The translations under genes and the position numbers were made by a program. The notes under the pieces were generated by a model. The model saw nothing but the letters and a program-made list of their open reading frames with translations. It was not told where the DNA came from and did no database searches. This document shows positions 26,046-35,845 of a DNA stretch of 57,795 bases, in pieces. How positions within the stretch are numbered: position 1 is the stretch's first letter; each line of letters opens with the position of its first letter. The DNA comes from Propionibacteriaceae bacterium AM104-82 (GTDB taxonomy: Bacteria; Actinomycetota; Actinomycetes; Propionibacteriales; Propionibacteriaceae), in NCBI GenBank assembly GCA_027658995.1, contig JAQDQK010000023.1:1-57795 (forward strand). Reading direction: 5' to 3'.

Positions 26046-26086
26046 AGGAAGGGCCCCCGACGCATTGCGCGCCGGGGGCCCCTTCC
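26046..26086. terminator. Terminator between the purine operon and the PIG-L gene
   Basis: A GC-rich inverted repeat around GGGCCCCCG and CGGGGGCCC, extended by AGGAA/TTCCT with one bulge, between two convergent genes. Confidence 0.75.
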
Positions 26087-26098
26087 TGCTGTGGGCGC

Positions 26099-29098
26099 CT
26101 ACTTCACGGGGAAGTACCACGCGTTGACGCCGTCGCTCGCGCTCTGCCACGAGATCACGAGCGAGCCGCCGTCGGCCAGCGCGGAGCTGACCTGCTTCGA
26201 CATCTTGAAGTGGACCTTGTCCTTGCCCGGCTTCACCTGGTAGGTGAGGCTGTCGAGCAGGTGCCCGCCCATGTCGGTGCCCCACGGAGCTGCCGTGATG
26301 TCGTCGGGCGAGCAGGTGGAGAACCCGAGGGTGTCACCCTTGCAGCTCGACTTCCACACCGGAACCATCCCGTAGTCGCCCTTCCAGGCGTAGACCCGAA
26401 GGGTGCCCGCCTCGCTGGAGGTCAGGTCGATCATGGCCTGCGCCGGGTTGGTCTTGACGCCAGTGATCTTCAGCGCCCTGCTCGGCTGGAGGCCCGAGAT
26501 CGACACGCCGCGCGTGGCGGACTGGTAGATCGTCTGCGGCGACTCCACGCCCATCAGCGCGGTGTCCGGGATGATCGGCTTCGCCGGGCTCGTGGACCGG
26601 TCGGCGGGAGCCTGGTAGCCGTCGAGGTAGGCGTGACCCCAACGGTAGGGCTCGGACTGCTGGCTACCGAACGGCGACCACGCGGTGCGCGTCTTGCCGA
26701 TATAGGTGGTCACGTCCGAGTCGTACGGCGTCACGTTGAGCCCCAGGTACTTGGGGTCGACGTCGTTGCTCGCCTGGGCGCCCGTCGGGGCCTTGCCCGT
26801 CACGACCGCGGCGGGCAGGTTCTTCAGCGGGATCTTCGTCTCGACGGTGTAGCTGCCGCCGGCGTAGGTGCCGTCGGCGTTGCGCGTCACCTTGACCGCG
26901 ACCTGCTGGCCGGGGGAGTTCGGCGCACCCTCGATCGTCGAGGCGAGCGGCCCCGAGGAGAAGCCCTGGTGGTTGTCCGCGTCGCGGCTCCAGCACGGTC
27001 CGTCGGCCCCGTTGCCCGCCGACCCGCTCGGGTCGTCGGTGTAGGGCAGGATGCCCGACTTGAACGTGGTGGACGTGTCGCGCGACCCGCCGACCGGGTC
27101 GAGCAGGACCTCGACCGAGTCGACAAGCCAGTGACCGAAGCAGCGCTCCGGCGGGGCTGCCGCGCTCACCTTGTCGTCGACGACGGTGGCGACCACGTAC
27201 AGGTCGTCGCCGTTCCAGCTCAGCCGCATGGTCGAGCCGTTGCCGCAGTCGACGCCGTTGGGTGCGCAGTCGGCACCCTCCCACTTGCGGCCGATGTCGA
27301 GCGCAGGCCCGTACCCGTCGTCGGCGACGCCGTCGATGGTCGGGGCCGTCGCGGCCTGCGGGATGACGGTGGTCGGCACGACGTAGAGCTTCAGCGTCTC
27401 CGTGCTCGTCGAGGCCGCCTGGGTCGCCGTCGTGGTGATGGTGACGTTGGCGTTGGCGCCCGCGGGCGAGGCCGGGTTGGTGTGTGTGACGACGAAGTTG
27501 ACCGTCGTGTCCGCGCCTGCGGCCAGGCCGGAGTACGGCTTGGACGCCGCGTCGGCCGTCATGCCATCGGGCAGGGTCAGCGCGACCGTTCCCGACTGGG
27601 CGGTGGTGGTGCGGTTGCTGACGACGACAGGCACCGTGATGGACTCTCCAGCCCCGATCTGCCGCTCCGCATTGGAACGGCCGCCAACGTGGCTGAACTC
27701 GTCAGCCCACTGGTCGTACTCGGAGTAGTTCCCCCAACGCTGGAAGCGTCCCTCGACGCCCGCGACCAATTCGATGCGGGTGTCGTTGTACGCGGTGACC
27801 GAGCCGTTGTCGAAGGTGGCCGAGATCGGGTAGCGCTTGAGTTGCGCGTCCGCGGCCGGGGTGACGGTGAGCGTGACGCTCGCCGTCGCGCCGTCGGTGA
27901 CGGGACCGAGGGCGGTGGAGCCGCTGACCTGCCAGCCGGCGGGGACCTTCAGCGCCACGTTGCCAGCGGCGAGCGTTCCCTTGCCGGACTTGGCGGAGAC
28001 CTTCACGGTGAATGGCACGCCAGGGGCCTGGAAGTAGTCGCTGGTCTCGATGGCGTAGGTCGAGCCGAGCGGCATGCCGCCGGGATCGGGGAGCACCGAG
28101 CCGTACAGGATCGCCTCGTCCTTCGCGTTGCCCGCCGAGCCGTTGGGCTGGAACGGGACGACGGACTGGGCGATGCCGTAGCGCAGGCACTGCGGGGCGT
28201 AGACGCCCGTGAACTTGGGTCGCGCCTGGGTCGCGTGGACCATGAAGCCCTCGCGCCCCGTCTGCGCCCACGTCATCTTGGTGCCTGCGGGCTGGCCCTG
28301 CACGTTGCCCTCGAGCCACGTGTACGGCGAGTCGTAGCCGCTCCAGGTGCCGACCACCGTGAACGGGTTGTCCGCGGCGGGCACGAAGCCGGCGTTGCAG
28401 TTGGCAGCCGTCGTGGTGCCGCCCGTGCCGGTCGTCTGGCCGCCTGAGGTGATCGTCTTGACCTGCCACGGCTGCACCGCGTCCGGCCCGACGAGTTGCT
28501 CGGGGAATTTGGTCGGATCGGCGGCCATCGCGGCCGCCTCCCACACCACGCGCCCTGCGTACTGGTGGTTGCCGTGGCCCACGGCCATCGACGGCGAGAA
28601 GCCGACCAGCACGTCAGGCCGTGTCTGCCGGATCACCCGGACGACCTGGCGCTGGATGCGCTCGGAGCCCCACACCTCCTCGGTGAGCGGTGCGGAGGTG
28701 TTGTAGAAGAAGTCGACAGCGTCGATGTTGTAGATGTCGAGCGTTCCCGAGCGGTAGTGCGAGGCACGGTCCTCGTTCTCGCGCCGCAGGCCGAGGTCGG
28801 GACCGGCCTCGCTGCCGACGGAGTTCGAGCCGCCCTCACCGCGGGTCAGCATGATGATGCCGCACTGGACGTCGTAGCGCTCGTGCCAGACGCCGCACGG
28901 GGTGATGAACGAAGCGTCATCGTCGGGATGGGCCCACAGCCCCATCACGTTGATCTTGCTCGCCGTGGCCTCGGTGCTGACCGAGGACGCCGGAGCCGGT
29001 TTGTTCTCCTTCGCCGAGGCTGGCACGACCATCGAGAAGCCGATGGTCAGAGCTCCAGCCAGGGCCAGGAGTCTCCCGACGGTTGATCGTTTCTGCAT
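26099..29098 (-). CDS. Secreted PIG-L-family deacetylase with carbohydrate-binding modules
   Basis: 999 aa with a Sec signal peptide (basic start, hydrophobic core, ending near PASAKE). Residues about 50-200 form a PIG-L/LmbE zinc deacetylase domain: the motif AHPDDD and the later HGNHQYAGR supply the metal ligands. Such enzymes remove N-acetyl groups from GlcNAc-type sugars. Beyond it are a NEW3-like beta domain (about 359-436), another beta domain (about 480-566), a CBM9-like sugar-binding domain (about 584-761) and an unassigned C-terminal region. ATG 29098 is chosen with GGAAGGTGG upstream; GTG 29110 is the alternative. It probably acts on a glycan outside the cell and feeds the adjacent import locus (inference). 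Confidence 0.88.
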   Translation of the reverse strand: MQKRSTVGRLLALAGALTIGFSMVVPASAKENKPAPASSVSTEATASKINVMGLWAHPDDDASFITPCGVWHERYDVQCGIIMLTRGEGGSNSVGSEAGPDLGLRRENEDRASHYRSGTLDIYNIDAVDFFYNTSAPLTEEVWGSERIQRQVVRVIRQTRPDVLVGFSPSMAVGHGNHQYAGRVVWEAAAMAADPTKFPEQLVGPDAVQPWQVKTITSGGQTTGTGGTTTAANCNAGFVPAADNPFTVVGTWSGYDSPYTWLEGNVQGQPAGTKMTWAQTGREGFMVHATQARPKFTGVYAPQCLRYGIAQSVVPFQPNGSAGNAKDEAILYGSVLPDPGGMPLGSTYAIETSDYFQAPGVPFTVKVSAKSGKGTLAAGNVALKVPAGWQVSGSTALGPVTDGATASVTLTVTPAADAQLKRYPISATFDNGSVTAYNDTRIELVAGVEGRFQRWGNYSEYDQWADEFSHVGGRSNAERQIGAGESITVPVVVSNRTTTAQSGTVALTLPDGMTADAASKPYSGLAAGADTTVNFVVTHTNPASPAGANANVTITTTATQAASTSTETLKLYVVPTTVIPQAATAPTIDGVADDGYGPALDIGRKWEGADCAPNGVDCGNGSTMRLSWNGDDLYVVATVVDDKVSAAAPPERCFGHWLVDSVEVLLDPVGGSRDTSTTFKSGILPYTDDPSGSAGNGADGPCWSRDADNHQGFSSGPLASTIEGAPNSPGQQVAVKVTRNADGTYAGGSYTVETKIPLKNLPAAVVTGKAPTGAQASNDVDPKYLGLNVTPYDSDVTTYIGKTRTAWSPFGSQQSEPYRWGHAYLDGYQAPADRSTSPAKPIIPDTALMGVESPQTIYQSATRGVSISGLQPSRALKITGVKTNPAQAMIDLTSSEAGTLRVYAWKGDYGMVPVWKSSCKGDTLGFSTCSPDDITAAPWGTDMGGHLLDSLTYQVKPGKDKVHFKMSKQVSSALADGGSLVISWQSASDGVNAWYFPVK

Positions 29099-29160
29099 GT
29101 GAAAATCCACCTTCCGAATGCGGACGACGCCGTCCGACCCAGTTGTGTCCCCTTGGACGC

Positions 29161-29245
29161 GTTCACTTTAGGCTGAATTTGCAGGAGATAGCAATGGTTT
29201 GCACGATAATGATTGAATTAGCGTAATGCCTTGTCAGCGGAATTT
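29161..29245 (-). promoter_or_regulatory. AT-rich upstream region of the PIG-L gene
   Basis: About 85 bases much richer in A and T than the surroundings, lying 65-150 bases upstream of the PIG-L start. On the minus strand it contains CTGACA followed by several weak -10-like hexamers, and two copies of TGCAAA. It probably holds the promoter and an operator, but I cannot assign exact boxes. Confidence 0.35.
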
Positions 29246-29290
29246 CGTCGCTCACGGGAGGGCCGGTTTTGGGCGCGCTCGATCCACCGT

Positions 29291-29314
29291 CGACCGGCCG
29301 GGAATGGCCGGTCG
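29291..29314 (-). terminator. Hairpin after the pfkB-type gene
   Basis: A 9-bp perfect inverted repeat (29291-29299 and 29306-29314) just downstream of the kinase stop on the minus strand. It has no T-tract. Confidence 0.5.
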
Positions 29315-29331
29315 GGCCTCCGCTCGAGGGG

Positions 29332-30516
29332 TCAGCTCGCGGGCGGGGGAGTGAGGCCCTCGACGCGGCCGGGGCGGTAACCCAGGTGCGATGCGAGCGC
29401 GAAGGTCCCCTCGGCGCGGCGGACGCCATGTACCTCGTGCGTCGGGATCAGGTCGCCCAGGAAGCCGTAGTCGCGCGCCACGTAGGCGGCGCGCAGGTCG
29501 CCGTCGGCGGCCTGCTTCGACACGGTGCGCCACCAGTCGGCGATGTCGCCCCAGCCGGGGGCCGCGAGCGAGCCACCGAAGCGACGCACCGCCATCGACG
29601 CGCACAGCGTCGCGAACCGCAGCCGGACCTCCAGCGGCCACCCCGCGAGGGTGCCGAGCACGATGGACGCCGCGAAGACGTCTCCCGCGCCCGTCGGGTC
29701 GATCGCGTCGACCGGGACGGAGGGGCAGAACGCCTCCTCGCCCGTCGACCCGTCGATCGCGAAGCTGCCGCCGACGCCGTCGGTGACGACCGCGAGCGGA
29801 ACCAGGTCGGCCAGTTTGCGGACCGCCTCGGTCGGGCGCTCGGTGCGCGTGTAGGCCATCGCCTCGACCGCGTTGGGCGTGAAGGCGTGGCAGAACTCGA
29901 GCGGCGCGAGCGTCGCCTGGTCCCACTTGCCCGTCTCGTCGAAGCCGATGTCGGCGAACAGCAGCGTGCCGCGCTCCTGCAACGTCTTCCAGTAGGGCCC
30001 GACTGAGTTGAGGTCGATCGCGGCGGCCCTGGCTGCGGGCGCCTCGAGCAGCGCGGCGTCCATCGGTTCGGGCAGGTCGTGCGCGTGGCTGACCATGCCC
30101 CGGTCGCCGCTGAAGGCCATCGAGACCGTGATCGCCGAATGGAAGTTGGGGAAGCGGCGCGAGGCCGACAGGTCGATGTGCTCGTCGTTGGAGAGCACGT
30201 CCCACATCCAGTCGGCGTACGCGTCGTCGCCGAAGCCCGTGACGAGGCCGGTGCGCAGCCCCAGCCTCGCGGTCGCCGTCGCCAGGTTCGCGATCCCGCC
30301 GGGGCAGGACCCCATGCCGGTGGAGTACAACTCCTCGCCCGGGTCTGGGAGCCGCGGCAGCCCGGAGAAGATCAGGTCGAAGAACAGCGGGCCAGTCGTG
30401 AGGACGTCGAGCGGCGGCTCGCCCTCATTCCTGGACGAGGCGAGCGGGTCCCAGGACCAGCAACTCTCGCACTGGGTCTCGTCGTGGTCGTGCCCGTCGT
30501 GGACTTGATCGGTCAT
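29332..30516 (-). CDS. PfkB-family carbohydrate kinase with His/Cys-rich N-terminal extension
   Basis: 394 aa. The ribokinase fold begins at about residue 37 (LDVLTTGPLFFDLIF). It contains the sugar-binding GGIANLA and the catalytic signature DPTGAGDVFAASIVLG. It should phosphorylate the imported sugar or nucleoside. The first 35 residues are unusual: HDGHDHDETQCESC could bind metal. The ATG overlaps the permease stop (ATGA), so it is the last gene of the operon from 33600. The substrate is not predictable from the sequence. Confidence 0.9.
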   Translation of the reverse strand: MTDQVHDGHDHDETQCESCWSWDPLASSRNEGEPPLDVLTTGPLFFDLIFSGLPRLPDPGEELYSTGMGSCPGGIANLATATARLGLRTGLVTGFGDDAYADWMWDVLSNDEHIDLSASRRFPNFHSAITVSMAFSGDRGMVSHAHDLPEPMDAALLEAPAARAAAIDLNSVGPYWKTLQERGTLLFADIGFDETGKWDQATLAPLEFCHAFTPNAVEAMAYTRTERPTEAVRKLADLVPLAVVTDGVGGSFAIDGSTGEEAFCPSVPVDAIDPTGAGDVFAASIVLGTLAGWPLEVRLRFATLCASMAVRRFGGSLAAPGWGDIADWWRTVSKQAADGDLRAAYVARDYGFLGDLIPTHEVHGVRRAEGTFALASHLGYRPGRVEGLTPPPAS

Positions 30517-31322
30517 TCCTTTGCAGCCCCCTCGAGCATGCCGTTGATGAAATAGCGTTGCAGGAACAGGAACGCGACGACGATGGGCGCCGCGATGATG
30601 ACGCCGGCAGCCGAGAGCAGCGCATGGTCGGCCGTGTACTGGCCCTTGAAGATGGACAGGCCGAGCGGCGCGGTGCGCCAGACGCCGGCCGGGCTCATCA
30701 CCAGCGGGATCAGGAACTCGTTCCAGGTCCACATGAACATCAGGACCGCGACCGTCGCGATCGACGGGAGCGCGGGCGGAATCATGATCCGCACCAGCGC
30801 CTTCATGCCGCCCGCTCCGTCGATCGAGGCGGCCTCGATCAGGTTGGGCGGCATCGCCCGGAACTGGCTGCGCATCCAGAAGGTGCCGAAGGCGACCGAC
30901 TGTGCGATCTGCGGGAGCGCGACCGCCCAGATGGTGTCGGTCAGGCCGAGGGTGCGCAGGTCGAAGAACAGCGGGATGACGATGGCCTCTGCCGGGACCA
31001 TCAGGCCGAGCAGGAAGAGGTAGAACAGGAAGGTGGAGCCCCGGAAGCGCATGGTGCCGAACGCGTAGCCCGCAAGCACGGAGAGCGTCAGCGCGACGCT
31101 GACCACGAGCAGGGCCACCAGCACGGAGTTGGTCAGCGCCGAGCCGAACTGGCCCAACTCCCACGCCTCCGCGAAGTTCTCGATGTGCAGGCCGGGGTCG
31201 GTCACGCCGATCTTGGGGCGCAGCGCCGTCACCACGATGGTGAGGATGGGGAAGATCGCGTACAGCGCGAACAGCGTCAGGATGACGTAGTTGGCGGTCT
31301 TCTCGACTGCTGAGACCCTCAT
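30513..31322 (-). CDS. CUT1 sugar ABC transporter permease (MalG-like), locus 2
   Basis: 269 aa with six predicted membrane segments and the EAA loop MPPNLIEAASIDGAGGMKALVRIMIP. It overlaps both neighbours by four bases and pairs with the permease at 31319. Confidence 0.93.
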   Translation of the reverse strand: MRVSAVEKTANYVILTLFALYAIFPILTIVVTALRPKIGVTDPGLHIENFAEAWELGQFGSALTNSVLVALLVVSVALTLSVLAGYAFGTMRFRGSTFLFYLFLLGLMVPAEAIVIPLFFDLRTLGLTDTIWAVALPQIAQSVAFGTFWMRSQFRAMPPNLIEAASIDGAGGMKALVRIMIPPALPSIATVAVLMFMWTWNEFLIPLVMSPAGVWRTAPLGLSIFKGQYTADHALLSAAGVIIAAPIVVAFLFLQRYFINGMLEGAAKE

Positions 31323-32224
31323 CGCTTCTCCTCCCCGATGCGCGAGACGACCACGTTGATGAGGAACACCAGGATCGTCAGGACGACGGCAACCGCCGAC
31401 GCGGAGCCGACCTCCTTGAGGTTGAACGCCCGGTTGTAGACCTCGTAGCTCGGCACTGTCGTCGCGGTGCCTGGGCCGCCACCCGTGGTGACGTAGACGA
31501 GGTCGAAGGTTTTGAGCGCCGCGATGATCGTCAGCACCAGGGCCGTGGTGATCTCGGCCTTGACCGCGGGAAGCGTGATCGCGAAGAACTCGCTGATCGG
31601 GCCAGCGCCGTCGAGGCGGGCCGCCTCGTACTGGTCGTTGGGGATGCGTCCCATGCCGGCGAGCAGCAGCAGCATCACCAGGCCGGTCTGCAGCCAGAAG
31701 CCGACCATGCCGACGGCGGGCAGCGCGAACGTTGCGTCGCCGAGCCAGCCGCGGGTGAGACCCTCCAGGCCGATCGCGGAGAGCATCGCGTTGAGGTAAC
31801 CGTTAGGGGCGTAGATCTGGTACCAGGCGACGGCGACCACGACGAGCGCGATCACCTGGGGCATGAAGATCAGGACGCGGAAGATGCCGAGCCCCTTGAC
31901 CCTGCCCCTGCGCAGGATCGCGGCGAGCACGAGGCCCACCACCAGCGGAAGGATCGAGTAGAAGAGGATCAGTGTCAGCGCGTGGGTGACGGCGGCGAGG
32001 AAGCGGCGGTCGCTCAGCAGGTCGACGTAGTTGCCGAGCCCCACGAACGTGGACGGGCCGAAGCCCGGCCAATCGTAGAGCGAGAACTGAGCGGCCCTGA
32101 GCAGCGGGTACAGCAGGAAACCCGCGTAGACCAGGAACGCCGGGAGGAGATACAGGTAGGGCGTGAACCTCCCTCGGACGACCGCCGAGGGAGACTCCCG
32201 CCGCTTCCGCGCCGCCGAACTCAC
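31319..32224 (-). CDS. CUT1 sugar ABC transporter permease (MalF-like), locus 2
   Basis: 301 aa. A basic cytoplasmic start (SSAARKRRESP) precedes six membrane segments, and the EAA loop reads YEAARLDGAGPISEFFAITLP. GTG 32224 shares one base with the stop of the binding-protein gene (TAGTG). No ATPase gene is present in the locus. Confidence 0.93.
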   Translation of the reverse strand: MSSAARKRRESPSAVVRGRFTPYLYLLPAFLVYAGFLLYPLLRAAQFSLYDWPGFGPSTFVGLGNYVDLLSDRRFLAAVTHALTLILFYSILPLVVGLVLAAILRRGRVKGLGIFRVLIFMPQVIALVVVAVAWYQIYAPNGYLNAMLSAIGLEGLTRGWLGDATFALPAVGMVGFWLQTGLVMLLLLAGMGRIPNDQYEAARLDGAGPISEFFAITLPAVKAEITTALVLTIIAALKTFDLVYVTTGGGPGTATTVPSYEVYNRAFNLKEVGSASAVAVVLTILVFLINVVVSRIGEEKR

Positions 32225-33600
32225 TATCCCGTGAACTTGCTGTAGTCGGCCTCGAAGTCGGCGAGCACCTCATCAGGGGTGCGCTGCGCGCCGAGGACCT
32301 CCTGCAGGCCCTGGCCTGCAGTGTCGGAGAAGGACGGCGTCGCGTAGTCGAGGTACGGCAGCAGCGTGCCCTCCTGCGAGACCTTGTCGAAGGCCTCGAA
32401 GATCTCCTTCTGGACGCCCTTCTCCGGCGCGAGCGCCGCGGTGTCGAGCACCGGGAAGCCGCCGTTCTCGGCGATCAGCTTCATGGCGTCGGGGGTGGTG
32501 ATGAAGTCGATGTAGGCGGCGGCCGCCTCGACCTGCTTGGCCTTCGCCGGGATCGAGAACGGGATGCCGGTGCCTCCGGTGGTGGCCAGCTTGCCGTCGA
32601 CGGCGGGCGGGGGAGCGATGAAGTGCAGGTCCTCGCCCATCACGGCCTCCATATCGGTGCCGAGCCACGAGCCGCCGGGCAGGAACACGCCCGTGCCCTT
32701 CGTGAAGTCGTTCCACGCCGCGTCGTAGTCGGTGCCGTTGGGGGAGCCGCCGAAGTACTTCTTGGCGCCCCAGTCGGCGAACTGCTGCATCGCCGCCTTG
32801 TTCGGCTCATCGGTCCACGAGGCGCCCGCGTTGCCCATGCCGAGCTTGACGACCTCCTCGGGGGCGACGTACTTGGCCTGCAGCGGTCCGAAGACGTGCA
32901 GCGCGGGCCACTTGTCGACGTTGCCGAGCACCATGGGCTGCTCGCCCTTTGCCAGCGCCGCGTCGAGAGTCGAGAAGTACTCGTCCCACGTCGTGGGGGC
33001 CTTGATGCCGAGCGCGTCCAGCTTCTTCTGCGAGTAGAAGATGCCGACGATCTCACCCGTCTGGGGCAGGCCGTACAGGTTGCCCTCGCCGAAGGTCTTG
33101 GCGTCGGCGCTGTAGCGAACCTTCGACAGCACCGAGGCGGGGAAGCGGTCCTCCCAGCCGTAGGCGGCGGCGAACGGCGACATGTCGGTCAACTGGCCGG
33201 CCTTGACGAACTGGCCCATGTCGGCGCGCGCGTTGTTGACCTGCATGACGTCGGGGACGTCGTTGCCGCTGAGCGCGAGCGAGGCCTGCGCCTTCAGGTC
33301 GTCGAACGACTGCGACTTACGGTCGATCTTGATGTTGGGGTACTTCTCCTGGAAGGCCTTGTTCAGGGCGACCAGGGCATCGTTCTGGCTGCCCCGCACC
33401 TCCTGGTCCCACACCACGAGCGTGATGTCACCGAGCTGGCTCGGATCCTTCGACGCTGCTGCGCTGGGGCTGGTGCCGCCAGGCTTCTGGGTCTGGGTGG
33501 GCGCGTTTTCGCCGGGCGCGCACGCCGACAGCACGCCGGCACCGGCCACACCGGCCGCACCCAGCACGAAGCTGCGGCGGGTAAACGGGCGAAACGACAT
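32224..33600 (-). CDS. Sugar-binding lipoprotein of CUT1 transporter, locus 2
   Basis: 458 aa, solute-binding protein family 1. The leader carries a twin-arginine-like motif (FTRRSFVLG) and a lipobox LSAC at about residues 24-27, followed by a Thr/Pro/Ser linker. ATG 33600 has a near-perfect AAGGAGG upstream; the longer frame runs into the regulatory region. It heads an operon of binding protein, two permeases and PfkB kinase, divergent from the DeoR repressor. Confidence 0.93.
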   Translation of the reverse strand: MSFRPFTRRSFVLGAAGVAGAGVLSACAPGENAPTQTQKPGGTSPSAAASKDPSQLGDITLVVWDQEVRGSQNDALVALNKAFQEKYPNIKIDRKSQSFDDLKAQASLALSGNDVPDVMQVNNARADMGQFVKAGQLTDMSPFAAAYGWEDRFPASVLSKVRYSADAKTFGEGNLYGLPQTGEIVGIFYSQKKLDALGIKAPTTWDEYFSTLDAALAKGEQPMVLGNVDKWPALHVFGPLQAKYVAPEEVVKLGMGNAGASWTDEPNKAAMQQFADWGAKKYFGGSPNGTDYDAAWNDFTKGTGVFLPGGSWLGTDMEAVMGEDLHFIAPPPAVDGKLATTGGTGIPFSIPAKAKQVEAAAAYIDFITTPDAMKLIAENGGFPVLDTAALAPEKGVQKEIFEAFDKVSQEGTLLPYLDYATPSFSDTAGQGLQEVLGAQRTPDEVLADFEADYSKFTG

Positions 33601-33626
33601 GGTTGGTCCTCCTTGACTAGCTCGTG

Positions 33627-33686
33627 GCTCGATAATGCCATGAATTGCGTGGGTTTGCTCGAATCTTTTCCATCCTGCTCTAAATT
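33627..33686. promoter_or_regulatory. Direct-repeat operator array between binding protein and deoR genes
   Basis: Three related elements, GCTCGATAAT (33627), GCTCGAATCT (33657) and GCTCTAAATT (33677), start 30 and 20 bases apart. Whole helical-turn spacing suggests a repressor bound on one DNA face. They lie between the divergent genes, and DeoR-type repressors often bind such repeats. Confidence 0.45.
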
Positions 33687-33692
33687 CGCTGC

Positions 33693-33698
33693 TAGGGT
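33693..33698 (+). promoter_or_regulatory. deoR-type gene -10 element, leaderless start
   Basis: TAGGGT ends six bases before ATG 33705 with no Shine-Dalgarno sequence. The repeat array ends immediately upstream, consistent with autoregulation. Confidence 0.45.
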
Positions 33699-33704
33699 CG
33701 AGCC

Positions 33705-34472
33705 ATGCTGACCGATGTTCGTCAGCGACGGACGGTCGAACTCGTGTACCAGCAGGGGTCGGCATCCGTTCCGGAGCTGGCAAAGACGCTTGGGGTGTCC
33801 GAGGCGACCGTTCGCCGCGACCTCGACCACCTGGCCGACAGCGGACTCCTCGACCGGGTCCGCGGCGGAGCGTGCCGTCCGCGCAGCGTCAGACCAGAGG
33901 CCGACGCCTCGGCCTTCGACGTGGTGGCGACGCAGGAGCCCGCCGAGAAGCAGGCGATCGCCCGCGCGGCCGCCCGCCTCGTCGAGGACGGCGACGTGGT
34001 CGCGCTCGACATCGGCACCACCGTGTTTTCGATGTGCCCGTACCTGCGCAACAAGGACATCACCGTCGTGACGGCCTCGCTCGCGGTGGTCCGCTCGCTC
34101 GCCGACGCGCCCAACATCGACCTTGTCGTGATGGGCGGGGTGCTGCGCCCCAACTACGAGTCGATGGTCGGCGTGCTGACCGAGTCGTGCCTGCGCCAGG
34201 TCCGCGTCGACGTCGCCTTCCTCGGCGCCGCGGGCGTTCGACCCGACGGCGCCGTCGTCGACTCCACGCCGAGCGAGGTGCCCGTCAAGCGCGCCATGAT
34301 GGACATCGCGACCAGGAGTTGGCTGCTCGTCGACCATGCCAAGTTCCCCGGGGTGGGATTCCTCGAGATCAACCCCGTCACCCGCTTCACCGGACTCATC
34401 ACCGACCGCCAACCGACGGCCGATCAGCTCACCGTTCCGCCCGATTCCAGCCTGGAGGTCCTCGTCCCATGA
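33705..34472 (+). CDS. DeoR/GlpR-family transcriptional repressor
   Basis: 255 aa. The N-terminal helix-turn-helix reads SVPELAKTLGVSEATVRRDLDHLADSGLL. The C-terminal DeoR sensor domain has the typical VALDIGTTVF, VVTASLAVV, FLGAAGV and VDHAKF stretches, which bind a phosphorylated sugar in this family. It is coupled by ATGA to the GH4 glycosidase gene and divergent from the import operon, so it likely regulates both. Confidence 0.95.
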   Translation: MLTDVRQRRTVELVYQQGSASVPELAKTLGVSEATVRRDLDHLADSGLLDRVRGGACRPRSVRPEADASAFDVVATQEPAEKQAIARAAARLVEDGDVVALDIGTTVFSMCPYLRNKDITVVTASLAVVRSLADAPNIDLVVMGGVLRPNYESMVGVLTESCLRQVRVDVAFLGAAGVRPDGAVVDSTPSEVPVKRAMMDIATRSWLLVDHAKFPGVGFLEINPVTRFTGLITDRQPTADQLTVPPDSSLEVLVP

Positions 34473-35845
34473 AACTTGTCATCCTCGGCGGTGGTGGTTT
34501 CCGTGTCCCGCTCGTCTACGACGCAGTCGCCAGTTCTGCGCTCGGCCCCGACGCCGTCACGATCGACGAGATCGTCCTGCACGACTCATCGCACGACCGC
34601 CTCGACGCGATCCGTCGGGTCATCGACAAGCACGCGGCCGACTTCGAGGACCCGCCGCGGGTCGGCTACACCACCGACCTGCGCGAGGCGCTCGTCGACG
34701 CGGACTTCGTCTTCTCCGCGATCCGGGTCGGTGGCACGGAGGGGCGCATCAAGGACGAGCGGGTGGCGCTCGATCTCGGGCTGCTCGGCCAGGAGACCAT
34801 CGGCCCCGGAGGCCTCTCCTACGCGCTGCGCACCATCCCCGTGATGCGTGAGGTCGCGCAGACCATCGCCGAGGTCGCACCGAAGGCATGGACGATCAAC
34901 TTCACCAACCCGGCGGGCATCGTCACGCAGGCGATGCGCGAGTTCCTCGGCGACCGGGTCGTCGGGATCTGCGACACCCCCATCGGGCTGGTGCGCCGCG
35001 TCTCCCGCGTGCTCGGCGCCTCGCTCGAGAACGACCAGGACCGGATCGCCTACGACTACATCGGCCTGAACCACCTCGGCTGGCTGCGCTCGGTCACCAT
35101 CGACGGCGTCGACCGGCTGCCAGAGGTGATCGGTTCCGACGAACTGCTCGACCAGATCGAGGAGGCGCGCGTGGTCGGCAAGGACTTCGTGCGCGCCATC
35201 GGCTCGCTGCCCAACGAGTACCTCTACTACTACTGGAAGACGGAGGAGGCGATCCACAACATCGTCGCCGCCGACGAGACCCGCGGCCAGTACCTGGCCC
35301 GCCAGCAGGCCGACTTCTACAAGCGGATCGAGGAGGCCGACTCGCCGCTCGACGCGTGGAAGGACGCGCTGCACGAGCGCGAGTCGACCTATATGGCCGA
35401 GAGCCGCGACGCAGATGAGGAGCGCCGCGAGGAGGACGTCGCGGGCGGCGGCTACCAGGAGGTGGCGCTGCGGCTGATGAACGCGCTCGCCACCGGGCGG
35501 CCGGAGCGGATGATCCTCGACGTCGGCAACGGGGGATCGCACCCGCGCGTCGTGCCCGAGCTACCCGACGAGGTCGTCGTCGAGGTCGGCTGCGTCGTGG
35601 ACGCCGACGGGGTGCACCCGCAGCCGGTCGCGCCGCTGGGCCTCAGCGAACTCGGGATCATGGCCCGGCTCCGCGCGTCGGAGCAGGCGATCGCGGAGGC
35701 GGCCGCAACCGGCGACGCCGAGCGCGCCTGGGTCGGCTTCTCGCTGCACCCGCTGGTCAACTCGCCCCGGCTGGGGAGGCAACTGCTCGACGGCTACGTC
35801 GCGGCCCACCCGCAGCTTCAGGAGTTGTTCGCTCAGCCCCGGTAG
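34469..35845 (+). CDS. Glycoside hydrolase family 4 (6-phospho-beta-glucosidase-like)
   Basis: 458 aa. GH4 enzymes use NAD+ and a divalent metal, usually on 6-phospho-glycosides, by an oxidation-elimination route. The NAD-binding start is MKLVILGGGGFRVPLV; the metal ligands are Cys168 (GICDTPIG) and His202 (GLNHLGW); NFTNPAG is family-typical. Whether the substrate is a phospho-glucoside or another glycoside is not certain, since no PTS is encoded here and the linked kinase is PfkB-type. The last 13 bases overlap the convergent PrsW gene. Confidence 0.9.
   Translation: MKLVILGGGGFRVPLVYDAVASSALGPDAVTIDEIVLHDSSHDRLDAIRRVIDKHAADFEDPPRVGYTTDLREALVDADFVFSAIRVGGTEGRIKDERVALDLGLLGQETIGPGGLSYALRTIPVMREVAQTIAEVAPKAWTINFTNPAGIVTQAMREFLGDRVVGICDTPIGLVRRVSRVLGASLENDQDRIAYDYIGLNHLGWLRSVTIDGVDRLPEVIGSDELLDQIEEARVVGKDFVRAIGSLPNEYLYYYWKTEEAIHNIVAADETRGQYLARQQADFYKRIEEADSPLDAWKDALHERESTYMAESRDADEERREEDVAGGGYQEVALRLMNALATGRPERMILDVGNGGSHPRVVPELPDEVVVEVGCVVDADGVHPQPVAPLGLSELGIMARLRASEQAIAEAAATGDAERAWVGFSLHPLVNSPRLGRQLLDGYVAAHPQLQELFAQPR

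Follow-up and report, generated by a model that had tools for sequence, protein, structure and literature searches.

A conserved actinobacterial gene set combining a secreted PIG-L protein, ABC import, a PfkB kinase and a GH4 glycosidase: a candidate route for glucosaminyl-inositol catabolism

Introduction

Characterised GH4 6-phospho-alpha/beta-glucosidases usually act downstream of phosphorylation by the phosphotransferase system (PTS). What might such an enzyme do in an operon that encodes no PTS? This question is raised by a locus at positions 26099-35845 of a 57,795-nucleotide stretch from Propionibacteriaceae bacterium AM104-82 (contig JAQDQK010000023.1; hereafter the window), which encodes a large PIG-L protein, an ABC importer of the CUT1 type, a PfkB kinase, a DeoR regulator and a GH4 glycosidase. 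A preliminary description, made from the sequence alone, interpreted these genes as one system for extracellular N-deacetylation, import, phosphorylation and cleavage of a glycan. Here we report that the gene set recurs in dozens of genomes, and we give an even chance to the proposal that it serves the catabolism of an N-acylated glucosaminyl-inositol of the mycothiol or GlcNAc-alpha-inositol type. In the portions of the open-access full-text literature covered by our search, we found no description of this operon or of a mycothiol-feeding pathway.

Results and Discussion

Gene content of the locus

Pfam searches and translations of the open reading frames (ORFs) confirmed all seven genes of the preliminary description. 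By the named relatives of its proteins, the window falls close to Tessaracoccus/Arachnia. Domains are named where their Pfam scores exceed the curated cut-offs.

26099..29098, minus strand: 999-aa PIG-L (LmbE-type) N-deacylase, predicted to be secreted, carrying NEW3 and CBM9 modules (Pfam, alignment, fold match)
29332..30516, minus strand: PfkB-family sugar kinase, 394 aa (Pfam, alignment)
30513..31322, minus strand: CUT1 permease PermG, BPD_transp_1 (Pfam, second family-model scan)
31319..32224, minus strand: CUT1 permease PermF, BPD_transp_1 (Pfam, second family-model scan)
32224..33600, minus strand: solute-binding protein (SBP), SBP_bac_1 (Pfam)
33601..33704, no strand: divergent intergenic region (motif comparison with the PIG-L upstream region)
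33705..34472, plus strand: DeoR-family regulator (Pfam)
34469..35845, plus strand: NAD-dependent GH4 glycosidase with both GH4 domains (Pfam, motif residues)

The genes for DeoR and GH4 overlap by 4 bp. The SBP and the two permeases identify the importer as CUT1, and the closest solved chains to the SBP are the chitin-oligosaccharide binders NagB1 and NagB2 (66 and 65 bits). As described earlier, neither a PTS gene nor an ABC ATPase occurs among the seven genes. Actinobacterial CUT1 importers often use one common ATPase (MsiK), and the missing ATPase is ordinary for this importer type. Four Solirubrobacter/Conexibacter loci (L024, L025, L055, L057) share an ORF family adjoining the permease; its L055 member, the only one scanned, is an ABC ATPase with a TOBE domain.

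Conservation of the linkage

A profile of 16 PIG-L proteins retrieved 57 distinct loci from named genomes, and tblastn with the seven window proteins was used to score the six partners beside each PIG-L gene. At least four partners were found in 38 of these 57 loci. PIG-L stands without the operon nearby in 16 (14 Kribbella, Tessaracoccus oleiagri and one Streptomyces); the others are two short contigs with part of GH4 only and a 5.6-kb contig without partners. A GH4 gene is present elsewhere in all 12 unlinked-PIG-L genomes that were checked. In T. oleiagri, whose unlinked PIG-L has a distantly related ABC pair nearby, all six operon genes lie together elsewhere, and 11 Kribbella genomes group GH4, DeoR and PfkB with an ABC importer unlike that of the window (about 28-33% identity to it).

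Two broader samples gave the same picture. A PIG-L relative occurs in 31 of 394 Actinomycetes genomes (about 8% of the sampled species; three at 61-62% identity to the window protein and 28 at 35-42%), and at least four partners adjoin it in 29 of these 31, two of which are also represented among the 57 loci. The exceptions are G367, where contig ends interrupt the gene set, and G144, where PIG-L stands alone. Conversely, of 33 genomes whose binding protein reaches at least 44% identity, 30 contain PIG-L. In a sample of 396 genomes at the level of the order, PIG-L was found in 39, ten of them already in the other sets; 26 of the 29 further genomes have at least four partners alongside, the exceptions being G613, on a 5.6-kb contig, and two genomes without the operon. 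In a wider count of 92 loci, which also took in short contigs and second copies of PIG-L, all six partners were present in 51, some in 16 and none in 25. The 51 complete loci show six different gene orders, which together with the wide recurrence indicates that the gene set itself is conserved, beyond a single neighbourhood. The co-occurrence of these genes exceeds chance. The earlier claim that the combination forms a system is thus sustained in the named, class and order samples; a lack of conserved PIG-L linkage in relatives, which the preliminary description had named as its refutation, is the opposite of what we observed.

These data also bear on a simpler explanation, namely that a six-gene operon takes up ordinary alpha- or beta-glucosides, that PIG-L is a polysaccharide deacetylase with loose ties to it, and that the inositol (iol) and NagB genes discussed below are chance neighbours in sugar-gene islands. 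Such looseness could account for the 233-bp gap between PfkB and PIG-L in the window, for order-sample genomes in which PIG-L falls to 30-34% identity while SBP, permeases and PfkB remain at about 60-75%, for the 16 of 57 PIG-L loci without a nearby operon, for the Kribbella sets paired with another importer, and for six genomes with the operon and no PIG-L match (three with an SBP of at least 44% identity, three with 38-40%). However, the linkage persists through six gene orders, the unlinked genomes checked keep a GH4 gene elsewhere (12 of 12, out of 16 unlinked loci), and the control genes galK, nagA and GH20 are almost never found near PIG-L. We regard this explanation as quite unlikely.

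Several loci depart from the common arrangement. The paralogous GH4-DeoR-PfkB set of Kribbella is found at L135-L145 and L150, and near operon-less Kribbella PIG-L loci lie genes for a GH67 alpha-glucuronidase and a LacI-type regulator, identified by scans in L029 and L030, respectively. Six genomes of 5.6-7.7 Mb have two PIG-L/CBM9 copies, the second of which (33-34%) is not linked to the operon (L116-L120, L122). In Tessaracoccus coleopterorum (L043), PIG-L, GH4 and SBP, but also the PF04962 and galK matches, are each in several pieces; since the fragmentation extends beyond the operon, it suggests sequencing errors rather than operon decay. A penicillin-amidase-like gene near the PIG-L-less operons L158 and L159 was set aside as evidence: it lies outside the operon, no signal peptide is visible on inspection, and the two loci are apparently closely related. 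No replacement deacetylase was found in the PIG-L-less L155, L156, L157 and L160 among the ORFs scanned (20 proteins over all PIG-L-less loci).

The PIG-L protein

The 999-aa protein begins with a Sec-type signal peptide, as judged by eye, followed by PIG-L (residues 55-188), NPCBM_assoc/NEW3 (359-428) and CBM9_1 (588-826) domains. For the LmbE/PIG-L superfamily, an HXDD motif plus a histidine, with metal and base functions, has been described (PMC4101496). The corresponding residues H57-P58-D59-D60 and H178 are fully conserved across all 16 aligned rows, and with a PF02585 score above cut-off and a PIG-L fold the protein belongs to this superfamily. Foldseek placed MshB, the GlcNAc-inositol deacetylase, as the best fit to the PIG-L structure model, tied with other LmbE folds, and also matched the CBM9 fold; both came from a second look, as beta-sandwich rows dominate the E-value ranking of the whole model. 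MshB and Mca are cytoplasmic, single-domain proteins with biosynthetic or detoxifying roles. They share the fold and the HPDD...H motif with the locus protein, which in contrast is predicted to be secreted, has several domains, sits in a catabolic-looking operon, and scores far below the NCBIfam MshB/Mca equivalog cut-offs (27.4 vs 224.35 and 25.2 vs 277.15 bits).

Could the food, instead of mycothiol, be a glucosaminyl-inositol of eukaryotic lipids, that is, glycosylphosphatidylinositol (GPI) anchors or plant and fungal glycosyl-inositol-phosphoceramides (GIPC), with CBM9 and NEW3 binding plant or fungal surfaces? The glucosamine of GPI is not N-acetylated, so no deacetylase would be required for such food. 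Among the 17 representatives of recurrent neighbours that were scanned, a subset of the neighbour clusters, we found no phospholipase or ceramidase. The CBM9 fold match would suit this idea, as would the surface-layer homology (SLH, PF00395) domains of some PIG-L relatives, one of which is named as LPXTG-anchored. The eponymous member of the PIG-L family acts on GlcNAc-phosphatidylinositol (PMC4101496). On balance, we consider a eukaryotic lipid source improbable.

The GH4 and PfkB enzymes

The GH4 protein is a family member by its two Pfam domains (139.3 and 142 bits) and by the motifs C168-D169-T-P and N201-H202, in which we take C168 and H202 to have a metal role. The Cys-Asp form of the first motif (CD, not CN) is conserved in 36 of 36 aligned loci, with two shorter pieces dropped. 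This form presumably marks the 6-phospho-alpha-glucosidase type of GH4, and by this motif the enzyme is predicted to be of the alpha subgroup. In its domains and Cys/His motif it resembles the GH4 6-phospho-alpha/beta-glucosidases of known structure (PDB 1u8x, 6dux, 6vc6; 1s6y, 5c3m), but where these act after PTS phosphorylation, the sole kinase of the operon is PfkB. The idea that the importer and PfkB take the place of a PTS is supported at the level of gene content.

PfkB carries the family's GAGD motif with the catalytic Asp (T275-G-A-G-D279), which all 23 aligned rows preserve without change. Profile comparison with the PDB gave ribokinase-like only. Acarbose 7(IV)-phosphotransferase (PDB 6wb7) is a PfkB kinase which, by its name, handles a cyclitol-containing oligosaccharide; yet its similarity is weak (45.5 bits with the PfkB profile), and many PfkB kinases outscore it.

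Substrate clues

ORFs around the 57 loci were clustered, and part of the clusters were scanned for family. The recurrent clusters comprised the seven core families, clusters confined to close kin, and inositol genes. NCBIfam equivalog cut-offs were passed by IolB and IolD in L046, IolD in L152 and IolC in L002; an IolA-type aldehyde dehydrogenase in L014 exceeds the subfamily cut-off, and an IolE-like protein in L153 falls below its cut-off. In three Agromyces loci (L004, L012, L046), GH4 is followed by IolB and IolD on the same strand within about 120 bp. iol genes also adjoin the operon in Georgenia/Oceanitalea, Microbacterium, Paraoerskovia, Humibacillus and Conexibacter.

Distances were compared in 45 operon genomes, 37 from the named loci and 8 picked from the class sample (two of the 45, G037 and G038, are probably one species), with iolB identified by PF04962 in the 37 and by TIGR04378 in the 8. 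Of the 42 genomes that contain iolB, 13 have it no more than 16 kb from PIG-L (G003, G031 and G077 have none). The control galK is near PIG-L in 1 of 43 genomes, with a second at 17 kb (iolB versus galK, Fisher 3e-4, kinship being ignored in these counts), and xylA-like genes in 0 of 34, none of them over the family cut-off. For the chitin markers, no copy of full-length nagA (0 of 45 genomes) or of GH20 (0 of 32) was found up to 20 kb from PIG-L. In the order sample, where stretches reached about 17-20 kb on each side or up to the contig end, five of the 29 genomes (G783, G666, G749, G766, G558) have iolB no farther than 16 kb away; queries for galK, nagA, GH20 and xylA-like genes, all from one Agromyces source, had no match in these stretches. 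Genome-wide, 29 of 31 PIG-L genomes encode iolB, compared with 147 of 363 others, a difference confounded by kinship and genome size.

The second clue is a NagB-like glucosamine-6-phosphate deaminase gene, which lies in or ends the operon at six loci in three positions: between permease and PIG-L in L004, L012 and L050 (at a distance of 2-11 bp from the permease, judged from tblastn match ends), after GH4 in L008, and after PIG-L in L113 and L114. Deaminase models were the best for all four proteins scanned, with only that of L008 above the curated cut-off. No NagB-like neighbour was found in the order-sample stretches. A glucosamine-6-phosphate product, rather than GlcNAc-6-phosphate, fits N-deacylation ahead of import.

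Could the locus then be an ABC/PfkB version of the E. coli chb operon, in which PIG-L deacetylates GlcNAc-beta-glycosides outside and GH4 cuts the 6-phosphate inside? In chb, import is by PTS, the regulator is of the AraC type, and the glycosidase ChbF is a GH4 member. The deacetylase product, a 6-phosphorylated amino-sugar disaccharide, is described as the substrate of ChbF (PMC9402603). A deacetylase family is present at our locus as well, and the proposed order of action would follow the same deacetylase-before-glycosidase logic. The components differ: chb combines PTS, an AraC-type regulator and a YdjC-type deacetylase, whereas here CUT1 genes stand in place of PTS components, with PfkB, DeoR and a secreted PIG-L/CBM9 protein. 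The alpha-type GH4 motif, the missing NagA and GH20 neighbours and the iol genes after GH4 speak against a chitobiose-type substrate, which we consider unlikely. Of the first interpretation, an amino-sugar product is favoured by the NagB-like genes; a chitobiose, GlcNAc-glycan or beta-glucoside substrate is not supported, given the GH4 motif, the lack of NagA and GH20 within 20 kb, and inositol genes as the recurrent catabolic neighbours identified.

Proposed pathway

From the gene content, the conserved linkage, the preserved catalytic motifs and the NagB and iol neighbours of some relatives, we infer a substrate and a series of reactions for glucosaminyl-inositol catabolism. The secreted PIG-L protein would strip the N-acyl group outside the cell, with CBM9 and NEW3 perhaps keeping it near glycans. 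SBP and the CUT1 permeases, powered by an ATPase encoded elsewhere, would import the free-amine glucosaminyl-inositol, PfkB would phosphorylate O6 of the glucosamine, and GH4, through its NAD-based redox chemistry, would cleave the alpha linkage, yielding glucosamine-6-phosphate and myo-inositol. The breakdown of these two products would be completed by NagB and the iol pathway, which are for the most part encoded elsewhere in the genome, and DeoR may repress the operon until a phosphorylated intermediate appears.

The neighbour data also weigh against this pathway: iol genes adjoin a minority of operons, NagB-like genes a minority of loci, and neither is found in this window. The inositol aglycone is the weakest link, and the amino-sugar part is the firmer one. 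A more specific version, in which the PIG-L amidase removes acyl-cysteine or acetyl from mycothiol (or its precursor) released by neighbouring actinobacteria and the alpha-specific GH4 releases glucosamine-6-phosphate and inositol, is tentative and somewhat doubtful; GlcNAc-inositol and GPI or GIPC heads are the alternative foods. If glucosaminyl-inositol catabolism is correct, it offers a testable route for the breakdown of mycothiol, GlcNAc-inositol and perhaps GPI/GIPC heads, a new type of natural substrate for GH4, and a case in which PfkB and ABC import together fill the role of a PTS upstream of GH4.

Transcription layout

The region upstream of PIG-L, at 29204, has CGATAATG..TGAATT in common with the divergent intergenic region. 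CGATAATG occurs just twice in the window, at 29204 and at 33630 between SBP and DeoR. As a shared operator this candidate was rejected, its score being equalled or beaten in 60 of 2000 shuffles, and a 6-mer search of 53 divergent regions for an operator was led by AT-rich, promoter-like words. Because of these two results, co-regulation of PIG-L with the operon is unproven. Two further features flank the PIG-L gene.

29209..29237, minus strand: promoter-like site upstream of PIG-L (9/12 consensus matches; consensus match only)
26049..26083, minus strand: terminator-like hairpin directly 3' of the PIG-L gene (16 pairs)

Between 25900 and 36000, one promoter-like site was found where 0.4 were expected; for terminator-like sites of this kind, five were found and 2.8 expected. 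Together with the 233-bp gap, the two features suggest that PIG-L may form its own transcription unit in the window.
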